Assembly (NCBI RefSeq): GCF_002234535.1
Contig: NZ_CP022521.1
Span: 1,736,001 to 1,800,000 of the forward strand
DNA length: 64,000 nucleotides
Direction: 5' to 3'
Source of the DNA: Actinoalloteichus hoggarensis
GTDB taxonomy: Bacteria > Actinomycetota > Actinomycetes > Mycobacteriales > Pseudonocardiaceae
Shown here: piece after piece, positions 18,159 through 26,605 of the stretch
How positions within the stretch are numbered: position 1 is the stretch's first letter
Layout of the letters: the number at the start of each line of letters is the position of its first letter
The notes under the pieces: generated by a model
What the model saw: the letters and a program-made list of their open reading frames with translations, nothing else
The model's database searches: none
What the model was told of the DNA's origin: nothing
Program-made: the position numbers and the translations under genes

Positions 18159-19415
18159 TCAGTATCCGAGCGCCTCGTGCACTGCCTTCGAGGAGGGCGG
18201 CACCGTGGCCTTGGGGCCGACATGGTCCGCGACCGCGTCGAGTGTCTTGAGCCCGTCGCCGGTGATCAGGAGGACTGTCTCGGCCTCCGGGTCGAGCTTG
18301 CCCGCCTCGACGAGCTTCTTCGTCGTGGCCACGGTCACGCCGCCCGCGGTCTCGGTGAAGACGCCCTCGGTCCGGGCCAACAGGCGAATGCCTGCCACCA
18401 CCTCGTCATCACTGACGTCGTCGATCGCTCCGCCCGTTCGTCGCACCGCGTCCAGTACGTACGGGCCGTCAGCAGGCGCCCCGATCGCCAACGAGCGAGC
18501 GATCGTGTCCGGCCGCACGGGGTGCACCACATCGCCGCCCGATCGAAACGCGGTCGACACGGGGGAGCAGCCGGTCGCCTGAGCACCGAAGACGCGGTAT
18601 GGCGTCGGCTCGACCAGACCCAGCGTGCCCAGTTCCTGGAAGCCCTTGTCGACCTTGGTGAGCTGCGCCCCTGAGGCGATCGGCACGACGATCTGTTCGG
18701 GCAGGCGCCAACCGAGCTGCTCGGCGACCTCGAAGGCGAGTGTCTTCGACCCCTCGGCGTAATACGGCCGCACGTTGACGTTGACGAACGCCCAGTCCTC
18801 GTGTTCGGCGGCCAGCTCGGTGGCCAGGCGGTTCACGTCATCGTAGTTGCCGTCCACGGCGATGAGCGCCCCGTCGTAGACGGCGGTGGTCAGCACCTTC
18901 GCCCGTTCCAGCGAGGAGGGGATCAGCACGACCGAGCGCCAGCCGGCTCGGGCCGCCGCCGCGGCGACGGCGTTGGCGAGGTTGCCGGTGGAGGGGCAGG
19001 CCAACACCGTGAAGCCCAGCTGCCGGGCGGCCGCCAGGGCCACGGCGACCACACGGTCCTTGAACGAATGGGTGGGGTTGCCGGTGTCGTCCTTGACCCA
19101 CAGGTTCTTCAGCCCCAGTTCGGCACCGAGGCGGTCCGCGCGAATCAGGCGGGTCAGGCCGGGCTGGGTGTTGGCATGGTCGTCGACGTCGGCGGGGACG
19201 GGAAGCAGTCCGCGATACCGCCAGATGGAACGAGGACCGGCCTCGATGTCCTCACGGCGAATCGTGCCGAACTCATAGGCCACCTCCAGCGGACCGAAGC
19301 ACTCGGCGCAGGCGAACTCGGCGGCCAACGGAGTCCGATTGCCGCATTCCCGACAGGACAGGGCGGCGGCGGGACCGAGATCCAGCGTGGCATTCGTGCG
19401 CAGGGTCGTCGTCAT
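18159..19415 (-). CDS. thrC: Threonine synthase (PLP-dependent)
   Basis: 418 residues. Converts O-phosphohomoserine to threonine. The N-terminal region has a zinc-ribbon-like pair (CRECGN and CAECFGPLEV), as in the longer threonine synthases, then the fold-type II PLP core with the lysine in THSFKDRVV, the phosphate-binding CPSTGNLANA, and IASGAQLTKV. ATG 19415 is chosen because AGGAGAGG lies 10 bases upstream; an ATG six codons earlier would have that ribosome site inside it. It is inverted relative to both neighbours (comEC and holA), and the usual partners hom and thrB are not near. Confidence 0.95.
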   Translation of the reverse strand: MTTTLRTNATLDLGPAAALSCRECGNRTPLAAEFACAECFGPLEVAYEFGTIRREDIEAGPRSIWRYRGLLPVPADVDDHANTQPGLTRLIRADRLGAELGLKNLWVKDDTGNPTHSFKDRVVAVALAAARQLGFTVLACPSTGNLANAVAAAAARAGWRSVVLIPSSLERAKVLTTAVYDGALIAVDGNYDDVNRLATELAAEHEDWAFVNVNVRPYYAEGSKTLAFEVAEQLGWRLPEQIVVPIASGAQLTKVDKGFQELGTLGLVEPTPYRVFGAQATGCSPVSTAFRSGGDVVHPVRPDTIARSLAIGAPADGPYVLDAVRRTGGAIDDVSDDEVVAGIRLLARTEGVFTETAGGVTVATTKKLVEAGKLDPEAETVLLITGDGLKTLDAVADHVGPKATVPPSSKAVHEALGY

Positions 19416-19968
19416 GGCGAGGCCTCTCCTCATCTTTCCCGCGGTGCGGGCCGGAATTGGCACCGTGATCGTCGAATGCCACAGGACGTGGTCGCGCTTC
19501 GACGCCGGTTGCCGGGGTTTCGCAGGGCCGGACCCTCTACCCCTCTGGATGAAGTGTTCAGTTGTGTCGCCAACCCTAGGGCATCGAAACGGGTCCGAAC
19601 CAGCCTCGGTCCGAGGAGTGGGACCGGTCAGGGCGGCGACTCGGTGCCCCCGGTGTGGAACCGTGGCGACGTGCGCGGAGAAGGACGCCGTGCACTGCGG
19701 CGACGGGCACACGAGCCGGTCCAGGCGGACTGCTCGCGGGCGAGCTCCGGGCGAGGACGGCCGTGATCAGCGATCCCGGGTTCGTCGGCCGGGGAGCGGA
19801 CGCCCGGGAGAACGGACACACGGCGAAAGGCGTGGATGGCCGTTCCGCCTGCTCGGGTTCTTGCCGCAGGCTCGAGACCGGTCCGGCGAATCCACAGCCT
19901 GTGAGCCTCAGCAGCGGCTGGATGCGGCTCCGGGAGGGTCGGTCGGTGACCCGTGCCAGGATGAACGG
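19416..19968. other. Divergent intergenic region thrC/holA
   Basis: 553 bases. The plus-strand frame is open through to holA but no start with a ribosome site or recognisable domain is visible; a short Cys/His string near 19650-19720 (RCPRCGTVATC) is reminiscent of a zinc ribbon but is not supported by anything else. It must hold the thrC promoter; I see no riboswitch or leader peptide. Confidence 0.4.
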
Positions 19969-23988: not shown

Positions 23989-25077
23989 CTACCCGCGTCG
24001 GTCCGACCGGCGTTCGGCGATGGCAGCGGCGAGCCCCCGGAGCGTCGACTCGGTCGTCTCCCAGTCCATGCAGGCGTCGGTGATGCTCTGACCGTATTCC
24101 AGTTCCCGCCCTGGGCTGAGGTCCTGCCGCCCGGCCAGCAGGAAGCTCTCCAGCATCACGCCGACGACCCCGCTCTCACCCGCCGCGAGGCGCGAGGCCA
24201 CCTCTGCCGCGACCACCGGCTGCCTGCGGTGGTCCTTCCCACTGTTGCCGTGGCTGGCGTCGATGACGGTGCGAGCGGGCAGGCCTGCCTTGTCCAGCAG
24301 CGCCATCGTGGCGGCGACGGACTCCGCGTCGTGATTGGGCCCCGCGGAGCTGCCGCGCAGCACCACGTGGCAGTCGGGGTTGCCCGTGGTGCGGAGGATG
24401 GCGGCCAGGCCGCCGTCGGTGATGCCGGTGAAGACGTGGCTGGATGCGGCCGCTCGGATGGCGTCGACCGCGACCTGGACGTCCCCGTCGGTGGCGTTCT
24501 TGATCCCGATGGGCATCGACAGGCCGCTGGAGAGCTGGCGATGCACCTGGCTCTGCGCGGTTCGCGCGCCGATCGAACCCCAGCTCACGGTGTCGGCGAT
24601 GTACTGCGGAGTGATCGGGTCGAGGAACTCGCAGCCGACGGGCAGCCCGAGTTCGAGGATGTCCAGCAGTAGGCGGCGGGCCAGCCGCAGCCCCTTGTTC
24701 ACCTGGAAGCTGCCGTCCAGGTCGGGGTCGTTGATCAGACCCTTCCATCCCAGGGTGGTTCGTGGCTTCTCGAAGTAGACCCGCATCACGATGCGCAGGT
24801 CCGCACGCACCGACTCTGCGAGCGTCGCGAGTCGACGTGCGTAGGTCAGCGCCGCGTCGGGGTCGTGTACCGAGCACGGCCCTACGACGACGAGGAGACG
24901 GTCGTCGCGGCCGGTGAGGACGTCGATCACCTCGTCACGGCCTGTGGTGACCACCTGGGCGGCTCGCTCGCTCAGCGGCAGTTCGTCGCGCAGCAGTGCG
25001 GGGGAGACCAGCGGCCGGACCTCGGCGATGTGGCGATCTCGAATGAGGTCGGAGTCGGAAGGAAGAGTGAGGGTCAC
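23989..25077 (-). CDS. aroG: Class I 3-deoxy-7-phosphoheptulonate synthase (AroFGH type)
   Basis: 362 residues. Joins phosphoenolpyruvate and erythrose 4-phosphate, the entry step to the shikimate pathway. Conserved blocks VVVGPCSVHDPDAAL, KPRTTLGWKGLINDP, IGARTAQSQVHRQLSSGLSM, LRGSSAGPNHD and DASHGNSGKDHRRQ place it with the E. coli AroF/G/H type. Actinomycetes usually rely on a class II enzyme, so this is probably an additional, separately controlled isozyme. GTG 25077 has GGAAAGG upstream. The 190-base leader carries an aromatic-rich leader peptide and alternative hairpins, so control by attenuation is likely. Confidence 0.95.
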   Translation of the reverse strand: MTLTLPSDSDLIRDRHIAEVRPLVSPALLRDELPLSERAAQVVTTGRDEVIDVLTGRDDRLLVVVGPCSVHDPDAALTYARRLATLAESVRADLRIVMRVYFEKPRTTLGWKGLINDPDLDGSFQVNKGLRLARRLLLDILELGLPVGCEFLDPITPQYIADTVSWGSIGARTAQSQVHRQLSSGLSMPIGIKNATDGDVQVAVDAIRAAASSHVFTGITDGGLAAILRTTGNPDCHVVLRGSSAGPNHDAESVAATMALLDKAGLPARTVIDASHGNSGKDHRRQPVVAAEVASRLAAGESGVVGVMLESFLLAGRQDLSPGRELEYGQSITDACMDWETTESTLRGLAAAIAERRSDRRG

Positions 25078-25114
25078 GATCGGCGCCTTTCCGCAGACCG
25101 CGCCCTTGCTACGA

Positions 25115-25184
25115 CAGAGCCGGCCTGCCGTCAGTGGGCAGTGCACGCGAGAACAGGGTGGAAGAACCCTGTTCGCCGGCTCTG
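25115..25184 (-). promoter_or_regulatory. Attenuator-like hairpins upstream of aroG
   Basis: On the minus strand, GAACAGGGT (25174-25166) pairs with ACCCTGTTC (25159-25151), enclosed by a second stem CAGAGCCGGC (25184-25175) with GCCGGCTCTG (25124-25115). The GAGCCGGC inside the leader peptide gene (25239-25232) can also pair with GCCGGCTC, so two foldings exclude each other. No clear T tract follows, so it may act on transcription or translation. Confidence 0.6.
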
Positions 25185-25197
25185 GATGGGATTGCGG

Positions 25198-25263
25198 TCA
25201 GCGGGTGGTCTCGCCGCCCGGCCCATCCAGGGCCGGCTCGGTAAACCACCAATAGCGCTGCAC
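25198..25263 (-). CDS. Leader peptide with Tyr-Trp-Trp-Phe run (attenuation)
   Basis: A 21-codon frame upstream of aroG, starting GTG 25263 and reading MQRYWWFTEP..., ending ETTR. Four adjacent aromatic codons (TAT TGG TGG TTT) near the start followed by alternative hairpins is the classic layout of an amino-acid attenuator, here tuned to tryptophan and possibly tyrosine and phenylalanine, the end products of the pathway. A TAGCAT box (25276-25271) lies seven bases upstream, so the leader peptide itself may be leaderless. Tryptophan leaders of this kind are known before trp genes in actinobacteria. Confidence 0.75.
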   Translation of the reverse strand: MQRYWWFTEPALDGPGGETTR

Positions 25264-25440
25264 GGCGATGATGCTACCCGAGGTGTACGGCCGCCTCCGC
25301 GTCCGGTCGACCGTCGCGGCGTCGCGGTCTCGTCTTTCCTGGTCGACGCGAGTTCATCACCGCCGGTCGGTGGCGCTGTCGGCTCCTGGCGGGGGCGCCC
25401 CCATACCGGATCGAGCCCGGCGGCCGGCGTGCCGCCGGGC

Positions 25441-25683
25441 TCAGTCCTCCGGTTCCTGTTCGGAATTCGTGCTCGGGGGTGGGTCGGTCTGTTTCTTCGG
25501 CGGCCTGCCGCGTCGGGCGGGTTTGCCTGCGTCCTTGGGCAGCCGACCGGCCGTGGTCAGTGATCGGCGGAGGAGGAACTCGATCTGTGCGTTGGTGCTG
25601 CGCAGATCGTCGTTCGCCCACCGCGTCAGCGCGTCGTACACCGCCGGGTCCAGGCGCAGCAGGAAGCTCTTGCGGTCCGCCAC
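25441..25683 (-). CDS. Small ribbon-helix-helix (CopG/Arc-like) DNA-binding protein
   Basis: 80 residues. The first 50 (MADRKSFLLRLDPAVYDALT and RSTNAQIEFLLRRSL) match the ribbon-helix-helix fold of Arc/CopG-type repressors; the rest is a Lys/Pro/Arg tail with an AT-hook-like RRGRPPKK. GTG 25683 lies four bases after the SPFH stop, so the two form an operon. No toxin gene is adjacent. The pairing of this protein with an SPFH gene recurs in actinomycetes; it likely represses its own operon through the palindrome at 26649-26658 (inference). Confidence 0.85.
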   Translation of the reverse strand: MADRKSFLLRLDPAVYDALTRWANDDLRSTNAQIEFLLRRSLTTAGRLPKDAGKPARRGRPPKKQTDPPPSTNSEQEPED

Positions 25684-25687
25684 GGCG

Positions 25688-26605
25688 TCAGTGGTAGAGC
25701 GAGCCCGTGTTGACCACCGGTTGGGTGGACCGGTCGCCGCACAGGACCACGAGGAGATTGCTGACCATGGCTGCCTTCCGTTCCTCGTCGAGTTCGACGA
25801 CTCCCTGCTCGGCGATCTTGTCCAACGCCATCTCCACCATGCCGACGGCGCCTTCGACGATGCGAGTGCGTGCGGCCACCACGGCGCCTGCCTGCTGGCG
25901 CTGCAGCATGGCCTGCGCGATCTCCGGGGCGTAGGCGAGATGGGTGAGGCGGGATTCGATCACGCGGACACCTGCCGACTCGACACGGACGCCGATCTCG
26001 GTCGACAGCTGCTCGGTGATGTCCTCGGCGTTCTCCCGCAGCGACGTGCTGGTCGGGTCGTCGCTGTCGTAGGGGTAGCTGGTCGCGATGTGTCGAACGG
26101 CGGTCTCGGTCTGGGTCTGAACGAAGCGGACGAAGCTGTCGACCTCGAACATGGCCCGCGCCGAGTCCTCCACGTGCCAGACGACCACGGCGGCGATCTC
26201 GATGGGGCTGCCGCCGGCGTCGTTGACCTTGAGGACCGTGGTCTCGTGGTTGCGGATCCGGGTCGAGACCTTGGTGCGGCTGGTGAGAGGGTTGACCCAG
26301 CGCAGCCCGTCCTGGCGGACGGTCCCGGTGTAGCGGCCGAGGAACTGGATCACTCTCGCTTCACGCGGCTGCACCATGATCAGCCCGGCGAGTACGAAGA
26401 ACCCGATGAGCAGCAGCCCGACGGCGGTTCCGATGAACAGGCCGTTCTGGTCGCCGATGCCCGCGAGGCCCACGGCGACGCCTCCGCCGAGGAGGATGAT
26501 GCCGAGCAGTGCCATGAGTCCGCCCGGCAGCACGAAGGCACGTTGCTCGCGAACCGACGGTGCGGGCATGGCCACCTGATCGACGGCCGAGGTCGTGTTG
26601 GTCAT
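25688..26605 (-). CDS. SPFH (stomatin/prohibitin/flotillin) domain membrane protein
   Basis: 305 residues. Two N-terminal membrane helices (about 27-50 and 55-78) are followed by an SPFH/band-7 domain ([20 protein letters not shown] at about 79-98 to [17 protein letters not shown]). Such proteins form membrane-bound rings or rafts that scaffold other proteins. ATG 26605 has AGGAGT upstream. First gene of a two-gene operon with the ribbon-helix-helix protein. Its partner in the membrane is not evident from neighbours. Confidence 0.92.

Follow-up and report, generated by a model that had tools for sequence, protein, structure and literature searches.

A conserved aromatic leader peptide and a putative chain of exclusive RNA helices upstream of the class I DAHP synthase gene of Actinoalloteichus hoggarensis and other Actinobacteria

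Neshat et al. in 2014 are said to have described the aroR/aroF attenuator of Corynebacterium glutamicum. The proteobacterial trp and phe leaders each sense one amino acid: their stall codons directly precede an RNA segment able to pair with the segment that follows, and the alternative pairing turns expression off. In translational attenuators of the ermC type, a drug causes the stall and the stalled ribosome covers segment 1. According to passages of PMC11802643, aroF of C. glutamicum is attenuated at the level of transcription through the leader AroR with Phe-Tyr-Phe, with induction under limitation of Phe and with Tyr having no effect; a passage of PMC7356990 calls the control translational, and the leader is also noted in a passage of PMC4046766. 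The trp attenuators of Corynebacterium and Streptomyces have terminators followed by poly-U (PMC1262725), and an upstream ORF, uORFC-13-1, with at least one Phe codon precedes aroF in Acholeplasma (PMC8632094, in part). Among the matches listed in our literature search, the aroF leader was not found outside Corynebacterium, most subscription papers being beyond the scope of the search. The literature found describes control of DAHP synthase of this kind in Actinobacteria for C. glutamicum only, and we here extend it to many actinobacterial families. The carriers include genera known for natural products derived from aromatic precursors.

The window, i.e., the whole stretch of DNA analysed, is 64 kb of the 6.6-Mb genome of Actinoalloteichus hoggarensis (NZ_CP022521.1). 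The leader element and the gene downstream are both on the minus strand, with the following features.

25276-25271, minus strand: -10 box TAGCAT, 7 nt ahead of the leader GTG (sequence)
25198..25263, minus strand: leader ORF of 21 codons, VQRYWWFTEPALDGPGGETTR, GTG at 25263-25261, TGA at 25200-25198 (sequence)
25254-25243, minus strand: putative stall codons TAT-TGG-TGG-TTT (Tyr4, Trp5, Trp6, Phe7), Tyr and Phe as rare U-ending codons
25239-25232 and 25182-25175, minus strand: copies 1 and 2 of GAGCCGGC (sequence)
25222..25237, minus strand: segment A, GCCGGCCCTGGATGGG, in the leader codons directly past the aromatic run (A:B covariation, 80 representatives)
25175..25190, minus strand: segment B, CCCATCCAGAGCCGGC, 3′ of the leader stop, predicted partner A or C (covariation and folds)
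25174-25151, minus strand: predicted hairpin GAACAGGGTTCTTCCACCCTGTTC, arms GAACAGGGT and ACCCTGTTC, at the position of the relatives’ terminator-like hairpin, without a U tract
25124-25117: copy 3 of GAGCCGGC, as reverse complement (sequence)
25115..25128, minus strand: segment C, GCAGGCCGGCTCTG, predicted partner B (via GAGCCGGC) or D (C:D covariation; B:C fixed by selection)
25070..25106, minus strand: predicted hairpin at the ribosome binding site (RBS), its loop holding most of the Shine-Dalgarno sequence, the GTG start paired (minimum-free-energy fold)
25093..25105, minus strand: segment D, GGGCGCGGTCTGC, abutting the Shine-Dalgarno sequence, predicted partner C or the 5′ arm of the RBS hairpin (C:D covariation in 71 relatives; opening energy)
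25092-25086, minus strand: Shine-Dalgarno sequence GGAAAGG of the DAHP synthase gene (sequence)
23989..25077, minus strand: class I DAHP synthase (3-deoxy-7-phosphoheptulonate synthase), start GTG at 25077 (TIGR00034 aroFGH, E 8.6e-149)

A first-pass annotation, made from the letters of the window, had pointed to the 21-codon frame with four aromatic codons in a row, its own -10 box seven bases before the GTG, three copies of one segment, an internal hairpin lacking a T tract and a class I DAHP synthase gene downstream; each of these is found at the coordinates given above. The segment GAGCCGGC has seven copies in the 64-kb window (shuffle mean, 12.2), three of which, one inverted, fall within 123 bases at the leader. 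The DAHP synthase is the sole PF00793 match in the 6.6-Mb genome, and a class II enzyme (PF01474) is encoded elsewhere in the same genome.

As the best explanation of this arrangement we propose that ribosome stalling attenuates the class I DAHP synthase gene through an element homologous to aroR/aroF of C. glutamicum that has lost its terminator and acts on translation, a reading that we consider probable. Transcription would start at the leader GTG and give a leaderless transcript. Upon shortage of charged tRNA-Tyr, tRNA-Trp or tRNA-Phe, the ribosome would stall in YWWF and leave A free to pair with B once B is transcribed; with B occupied, C:D could form, by which D would be kept out of the RBS hairpin and the gene would be translated. 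When aromatic amino acids are sufficient, the ribosome would reach the leader stop, its footprint lying over the 5′ half of B and blocking A:B, upon which B:C would form and D would fold over the ribosome binding site. The leader would probably turn the gene on when Tyr, Trp and Phe are scarce. The sensing of tRNA, the direction of the response, the translational output and the homology with aroR are what we infer. Attenuation as such has good support. That the output is translational is predicted from models, and several folding tests did not show it.

Set against the described systems, the window resembles aroR/aroF in that a leader peptide with aromatic codons precedes a DAHP synthase gene, but has extra Trp codons in the run and no U tract: the leader-controlled intrinsic terminator is absent, a hairpin being followed by TCGCGTGC, and the path through C:D and the RBS hairpin ends at the ribosome binding site. 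The putative homology of the two leaders is drawn via L301 (family f8, probably Corynebacterium), whose leader MRMWRFYFSKAPEAETS has Phe-Tyr-Phe, A, B and a hairpin with TTTTGTCGT, and via the descriptions of C. glutamicum aroR. As in the trp and phe leaders, the stall codons are just ahead of a segment that pairs with the next one, but those leaders sense one amino acid each, whereas the run in the window holds Tyr, Trp and Phe. Judged as a classical transcription attenuator, the window lacks the U-rich terminator and has an antiterminator-like, covarying helix (A:B), with competition modelled only for stalls at Tyr4 and Trp5. The window would have in common with the ermC type a series of mutually exclusive helices of which the last, by prediction, covers the ribosome binding site; in that type the stalled ribosome covers segment 1, while the scheme proposed here leaves A free. 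The actinobacterial cys leaders (PMC1262725) resemble the window in having stall codons and no terminator, unlike it in having the Cys codons near the stop. The Acholeplasma uORFC-13-1 is likewise an upstream ORF before a DAHP synthase gene, but in another phylum, with its own terminator and another structure.

Class I DAHP synthase loci were collected from the best 80 of 587 relatives and from 249 genomes at family level, 249 at order level and 296 at class level (genomes partly shared), and upstream regions were read for a fetched subset (30 loci, 100 regions, 60 regions and further loci). The first-pass annotation had made its reading depend on conservation of the leader frame and stems in close relatives. 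Among the 130 family copies fetched from the matches listed, the leader with GAGCC behind it occurs in 93 of 99 with at least 64% identity and in three of 31 below 64%. The six close copies without a leader are L119, L167, L132, L136, L143 and L168, of which L119 and L167 keep the aromatic run with no ATG or GTG nearby. A loose ORF finder yielded 216 nonredundant loci: 93 in a short-loop group picked by the motif GAGCCG, 4-22 nt, CCGGCTC; 97 other loci with GAGCC, the second group, which includes the window; and 26 without GAGCC (class “other”), mostly proteobacterial and some not credible as leaders. The proteobacterial L058 stands in the second group through its GAGCC; it is excluded from the leader and codon counts, the second-group A:B fold and the tree, and included in the own-versus-other fit, unpairedness, opening energy, TANNNT, hairpin and T-tail, and shuffled-upstream counts.

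Two alignments, A1 (80 representatives of the 190 loci with GAGCC) and A2 (71 of the 93 short-loop loci), omit near-copies and length outliers. All 80 rows of A1, including L301, have GGC in the leader and GAGCC after it, GAGCC having been a selection criterion and GGC not. A covariance model built from 80 sequences (R1) has one site in the window’s genome, and across 150 genomes of the order it matched 49, some of the matched loci belonging to the model’s own alignment; 48 of the matches are found 84-203 nt ahead of a class I DAHP synthase, and the 49th is weak and elsewhere in the genome. It also recovered loci overlooked by the ORF finder; strong matches came from eight of 66 sources searched, three of these (L023, L026, L070) being members of the second group already. 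No R1 match was obtained at some actinobacterial class I DAHP synthase genes, those of L305-L311, L260, L263, L013 and L072 (L013 and L072 are Nocardiopsis). Four of the close copies without a leader, L132, L136, L143 and L168, belong to one genus of the family; in them B, C and D are preserved, the leader is degenerate, and the R1 score is 13.8-25.9 bits.

Tyr, Trp and Phe codons occur together in the run of 172 of 189 leaders, the exceptions being 12 without Trp, four without Tyr and one without Phe; sensing of all three end products would fit these 172. Codon choice is strongly biased: Phe is TTT in 192 of 277 leader codons and Tyr is TAT in 179 of 215, against 0/525 and 3/406, respectively, in 83 DAHP synthase genes (340 codons counted from the match start; the set may include L058), while five ORFs of the window have TTT in 2/41 and TAT in 1/20. 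In 183 of 188 leaders TTT is the final Phe codon, and an A comes next in 150 of these 183, which may reflect codon choice or a constraint on the RNA. With a bias this strong, the part that codon choice plays in stalling can be tested directly. Phe is the final aromatic codon before segment A in 175 of 189 leaders.

A TANNNT box is present 4-12 nt, mostly 7 nt, ahead of the leader start in 92 of 93 short-loop and 76 of 97 second-group loci, where about 0.8 per set would be expected by chance as judged from windows further upstream. The spacing suggests a leaderless transcript starting at or beside the leader GTG; such a transcript is reported for trpL of S. lividans (in a passage of PMC8079986). 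On both strands of the window there are five mini-ORFs with an aromatic cluster, one of them also with TANNNT 6-8 nt before its start. The combination is found in 188 of 190 upstream regions of relatives (selected for the leader ORF, not for the box) and in 0 of 1900 shuffled ones. That the stems serve a protein or a ligand rather than a stalling ribosome, the aromatic codons being incidental, would agree with the fact that no Rfam family lies at the locus (none reached the gathering level in the stretch searched there, which gave two chance-level matches with E 5 and 8, and the covariance models of the Trp and Phe leader families did not match at the window leader). Aromatic codons kept together with a fixed frame and a choice of rare codons, TANNNT at a near-fixed distance and a gene for the entry enzyme of the pathway all speak against this idea, which we regard as highly improbable.

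Segments A and B pair over the palindrome GCCGGC plus CTGGATGGG/CCCATCCAG, copy 1 with copy 2, and in the window A:B has 15 bp including one C.A mismatch. In the 80 representatives, 81.9% of A:B cells are paired, as compared to 71.5% when shuffled and 31-44% when slid, with 99 double changes versus 31.7 in shuffles. For C:D in 71 relatives, the corresponding values are 89.9%, 84.6% and 26-47%, with 67 double changes versus 30.7. Both helices exceed 500 of 500 column shuffles in the share of paired cells, in cells altered on both sides and in covariation score; no excess is seen in how many pairs show a double change (203/500 shuffles as high for A:B and 328/500 for C:D), and the shuffle tests and z values are inflated by relatedness. 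A and B fit better within a species than between species (z 7.0 and 16.9 in the two groups), and C and D from one locus outscore permuted pairs (z 8.5). In the short-loop group, B:C is 98.4% paired with z 0.4; it is fixed and cannot be tested there by comparison because the group was picked by that motif. In the second group, a locus’ own B suits its downstream region better than the B of others (z 7.7). A:C, a candidate with a duplex energy of -19.5 kcal/mol in the window, is absent from the window folds examined.

Compensatory changes support the A:B and C:D helices. The covariation of the stems that the first-pass annotation had anticipated is borne out on three measures, and the compact attenuator that it had proposed gains support from the conserved leader and the covarying stems. 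It had one segment pairing in two exclusive ways: exclusive helices there seem to be, but the scheme is a different one, the covarying helices being A:B and C:D, besides B:C. As far as comparison of the relatives’ sequences can carry it, the leader, its aromatic codons, the promoter spacing, A:B together with C:D, and the link to the gene appear established.

Which stall yields which fold was addressed by modelling only. Before C is made, A:B (at least six pairs) is predicted in all 93 short-loop relatives for a stall at the first aromatic codon, in 70 for a stall at the last and in two for a ribosome standing at the leader stop. B:C is predicted for the window and for 83 of the 93 when no ribosome is present, and for 88 of them when one has reached the stop. 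In the model of the window with the full leader, a stall at Tyr4 or Trp5 gives A:B and no B:C, B:C stays with a stall at Trp6 or Phe7, and with the ribosome at the leader stop there is B:C only; this footprint model favours Tyr4 and Trp5 over Trp6 and Phe7 as the sensing stalls. With C present and the folds at equilibrium, only 15 of the 93 short-loop relatives have A:B alone when the ribosome stalls at the first aromatic codon; in this group the switch must therefore be kinetic, with the order of transcription mattering. In the second group, A:B is predicted in 85 of 96 even with the ribosome at the stop, and falls from 13.7 pairs at the first aromatic stall to 8.0 at the last. A competitor of the terminator-like hairpin was sought by eye and in folds, where the hairpin has a probability of 0.88 with A free and 0.89 with A blocked. 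Since A:B forms in this group regardless of the stop and the hairpin regardless of A, the stall scheme does not explain the second group, nor, as a consequence, how the C. glutamicum attenuator, reported as transcriptional, uses these parts.

At the other end of the chain, the Shine-Dalgarno sequence showed no difference in unpairedness between stalled and free states, and after this null result we adopted as read-out the modelled energy of opening the region from the Shine-Dalgarno sequence through the first 16 nt of the gene. In the short-loop group, opening costs on average 7.2 kcal/mol with C free and 15.1 kcal/mol with C blocked, blocked C being dearer by more than 1 kcal/mol in 89 of 92 and cheaper in one; in the window the costs are 7.8 and 17.3 kcal/mol. 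With C shuffled, the mean is 12.5 kcal/mol, and in only 42 of 92 relatives does the real C do better than every one of its 30 shuffles. The difference in the second group is 2.0 kcal/mol (61/97 for, 22 against). A last helix covering the ribosome binding site is thus predicted by opening energy and not by plain unpairedness. Every state tested for the window has a paired start codon (unpaired 0.00-0.02) and a weak C:D. Start codon pairing in all modelled window states and the fixing of short-loop B:C by selection slightly lower our confidence in the best explanation and in the evolutionary history put forward below.

These models also bear on a reverse, ermC-like logic, in which the stalled ribosome covers A and B:C is the active state. 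It would account for the response of C. glutamicum to limitation of Phe and not Tyr (passage of PMC11802643), with Phe last before A in 175/189 leaders, and for the loss of A:B pairs between the first and the last stall in the second group. B:C is, however, already the default in the window and most of the short-loop group without a ribosome or with one at the stop, so that a stall would change nothing, and opening the binding site becomes dearer, not cheaper, with C taken; we judge the reverse logic improbable.

Under the preferred reading, in which the stall frees C for D, the lineage would have lost its terminator. About half of the relatives have a hairpin between B and C, often T-tailed, and the short-loop group has none. 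In the second group, a permissive search predicts a hairpin after B in 97 of 97, with at least four T in the 8 nt past it in 56 of 97 (2.6 expected); past B:C, at least four T in 8 nt occur in one of 93 short-loop relatives. The hairpin of the window, 25174-25151, is followed by TCGCGTGC. Transcription attenuation without a U tract would have B:C or the GAACAGGG hairpin terminate, alone or with Rho, and A:B prevent this upon a stall. It shares the modelled A:B/B:C logic, it agrees with the 56 T-tailed hairpins and with the C. glutamicum relative as reported in PMC11802643 (passages of PMC7356990 say otherwise), and Rho has been suggested for terminator-less actinobacterial cys leaders (Seliverstov et al., PMC1262725, in part). 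The single T-tailed case past B:C among the 93 and the TCGCGTGC behind the window’s hairpin argue against it, and it leaves unexplained the covarying C:D at the Shine-Dalgarno sequence and its effect on opening energy, so that we take it to be rather unlikely. Translational control is likely because the hairpin at the terminator site has no U tract and what is left of the conserved switch runs to the ribosome binding site.

In a phylogeny of 82 DAHP synthases, with states assigned from simple patterns and the root placed at the midpoint only, the short-loop state takes one change (support 96/99) and the state of a hairpin without U tract two, one for the window and two congeners and one for L099. 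The trio of the window is inside a larger clade of 54 rows, among lineages with a T-rich tail. We read the change as loss of the terminator rather than gain elsewhere, a direction that depends on the midpoint root. On this reading, a general sensor of aromatic starvation (Tyr, Trp and Phe codons, with Tyr and Phe mostly rare) would have lost the terminator in one lineage, control passing to a series of five RNA segments that runs to the ribosome binding site (A, B, C, D and the 3′ arm of the RBS hairpin), with the window’s genus midway, the hairpin kept and the U tract gone; we put this history forward tentatively, at close to even chances. With one change on the tree and an intermediate form present, it is a candidate case of a switch from transcriptional to translational control. 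For strain engineering, removal or recoding of the leader is an obvious route to try for a higher shikimate flux.

Aromatic-rich mini-ORFs, e.g., FYFYFFWHLRPLADREG, FYFWYYGFPMPLAEEG and FYWYFSYDSSLAVGG, also occur ahead of class I DAHP synthase in Proteobacteria; in seven such proteobacterial loci searched, no Rfam family was found. The loci with aromatic mini-ORFs are L036, L047, L048, L054 and L057 (presumably Burkholderiales), L037, L039 and L042 (presumably Xanthomonadales), L049, L071, L073 and L076 (presumably Rhizobiales), and L063, L064 and L077.

Elsewhere in the window, on the same strand ahead of the leader (25410-26605, minus), are a band-7/SPFH-like ORF (25688-26605), for which an NCBIfam search gave no match, and a small ribbon-helix-helix-like ORF, both named by eye; an inverted repeat, GAGCCCGGCGG and CCGCCGGGCTC, is near the end of the latter. 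A SAM riboswitch (RF00162, 76.9 bits) at 19427-19555, minus strand, overlaps the 5′ part of ORF 18159-19712, which by eye resembles threonine synthase.
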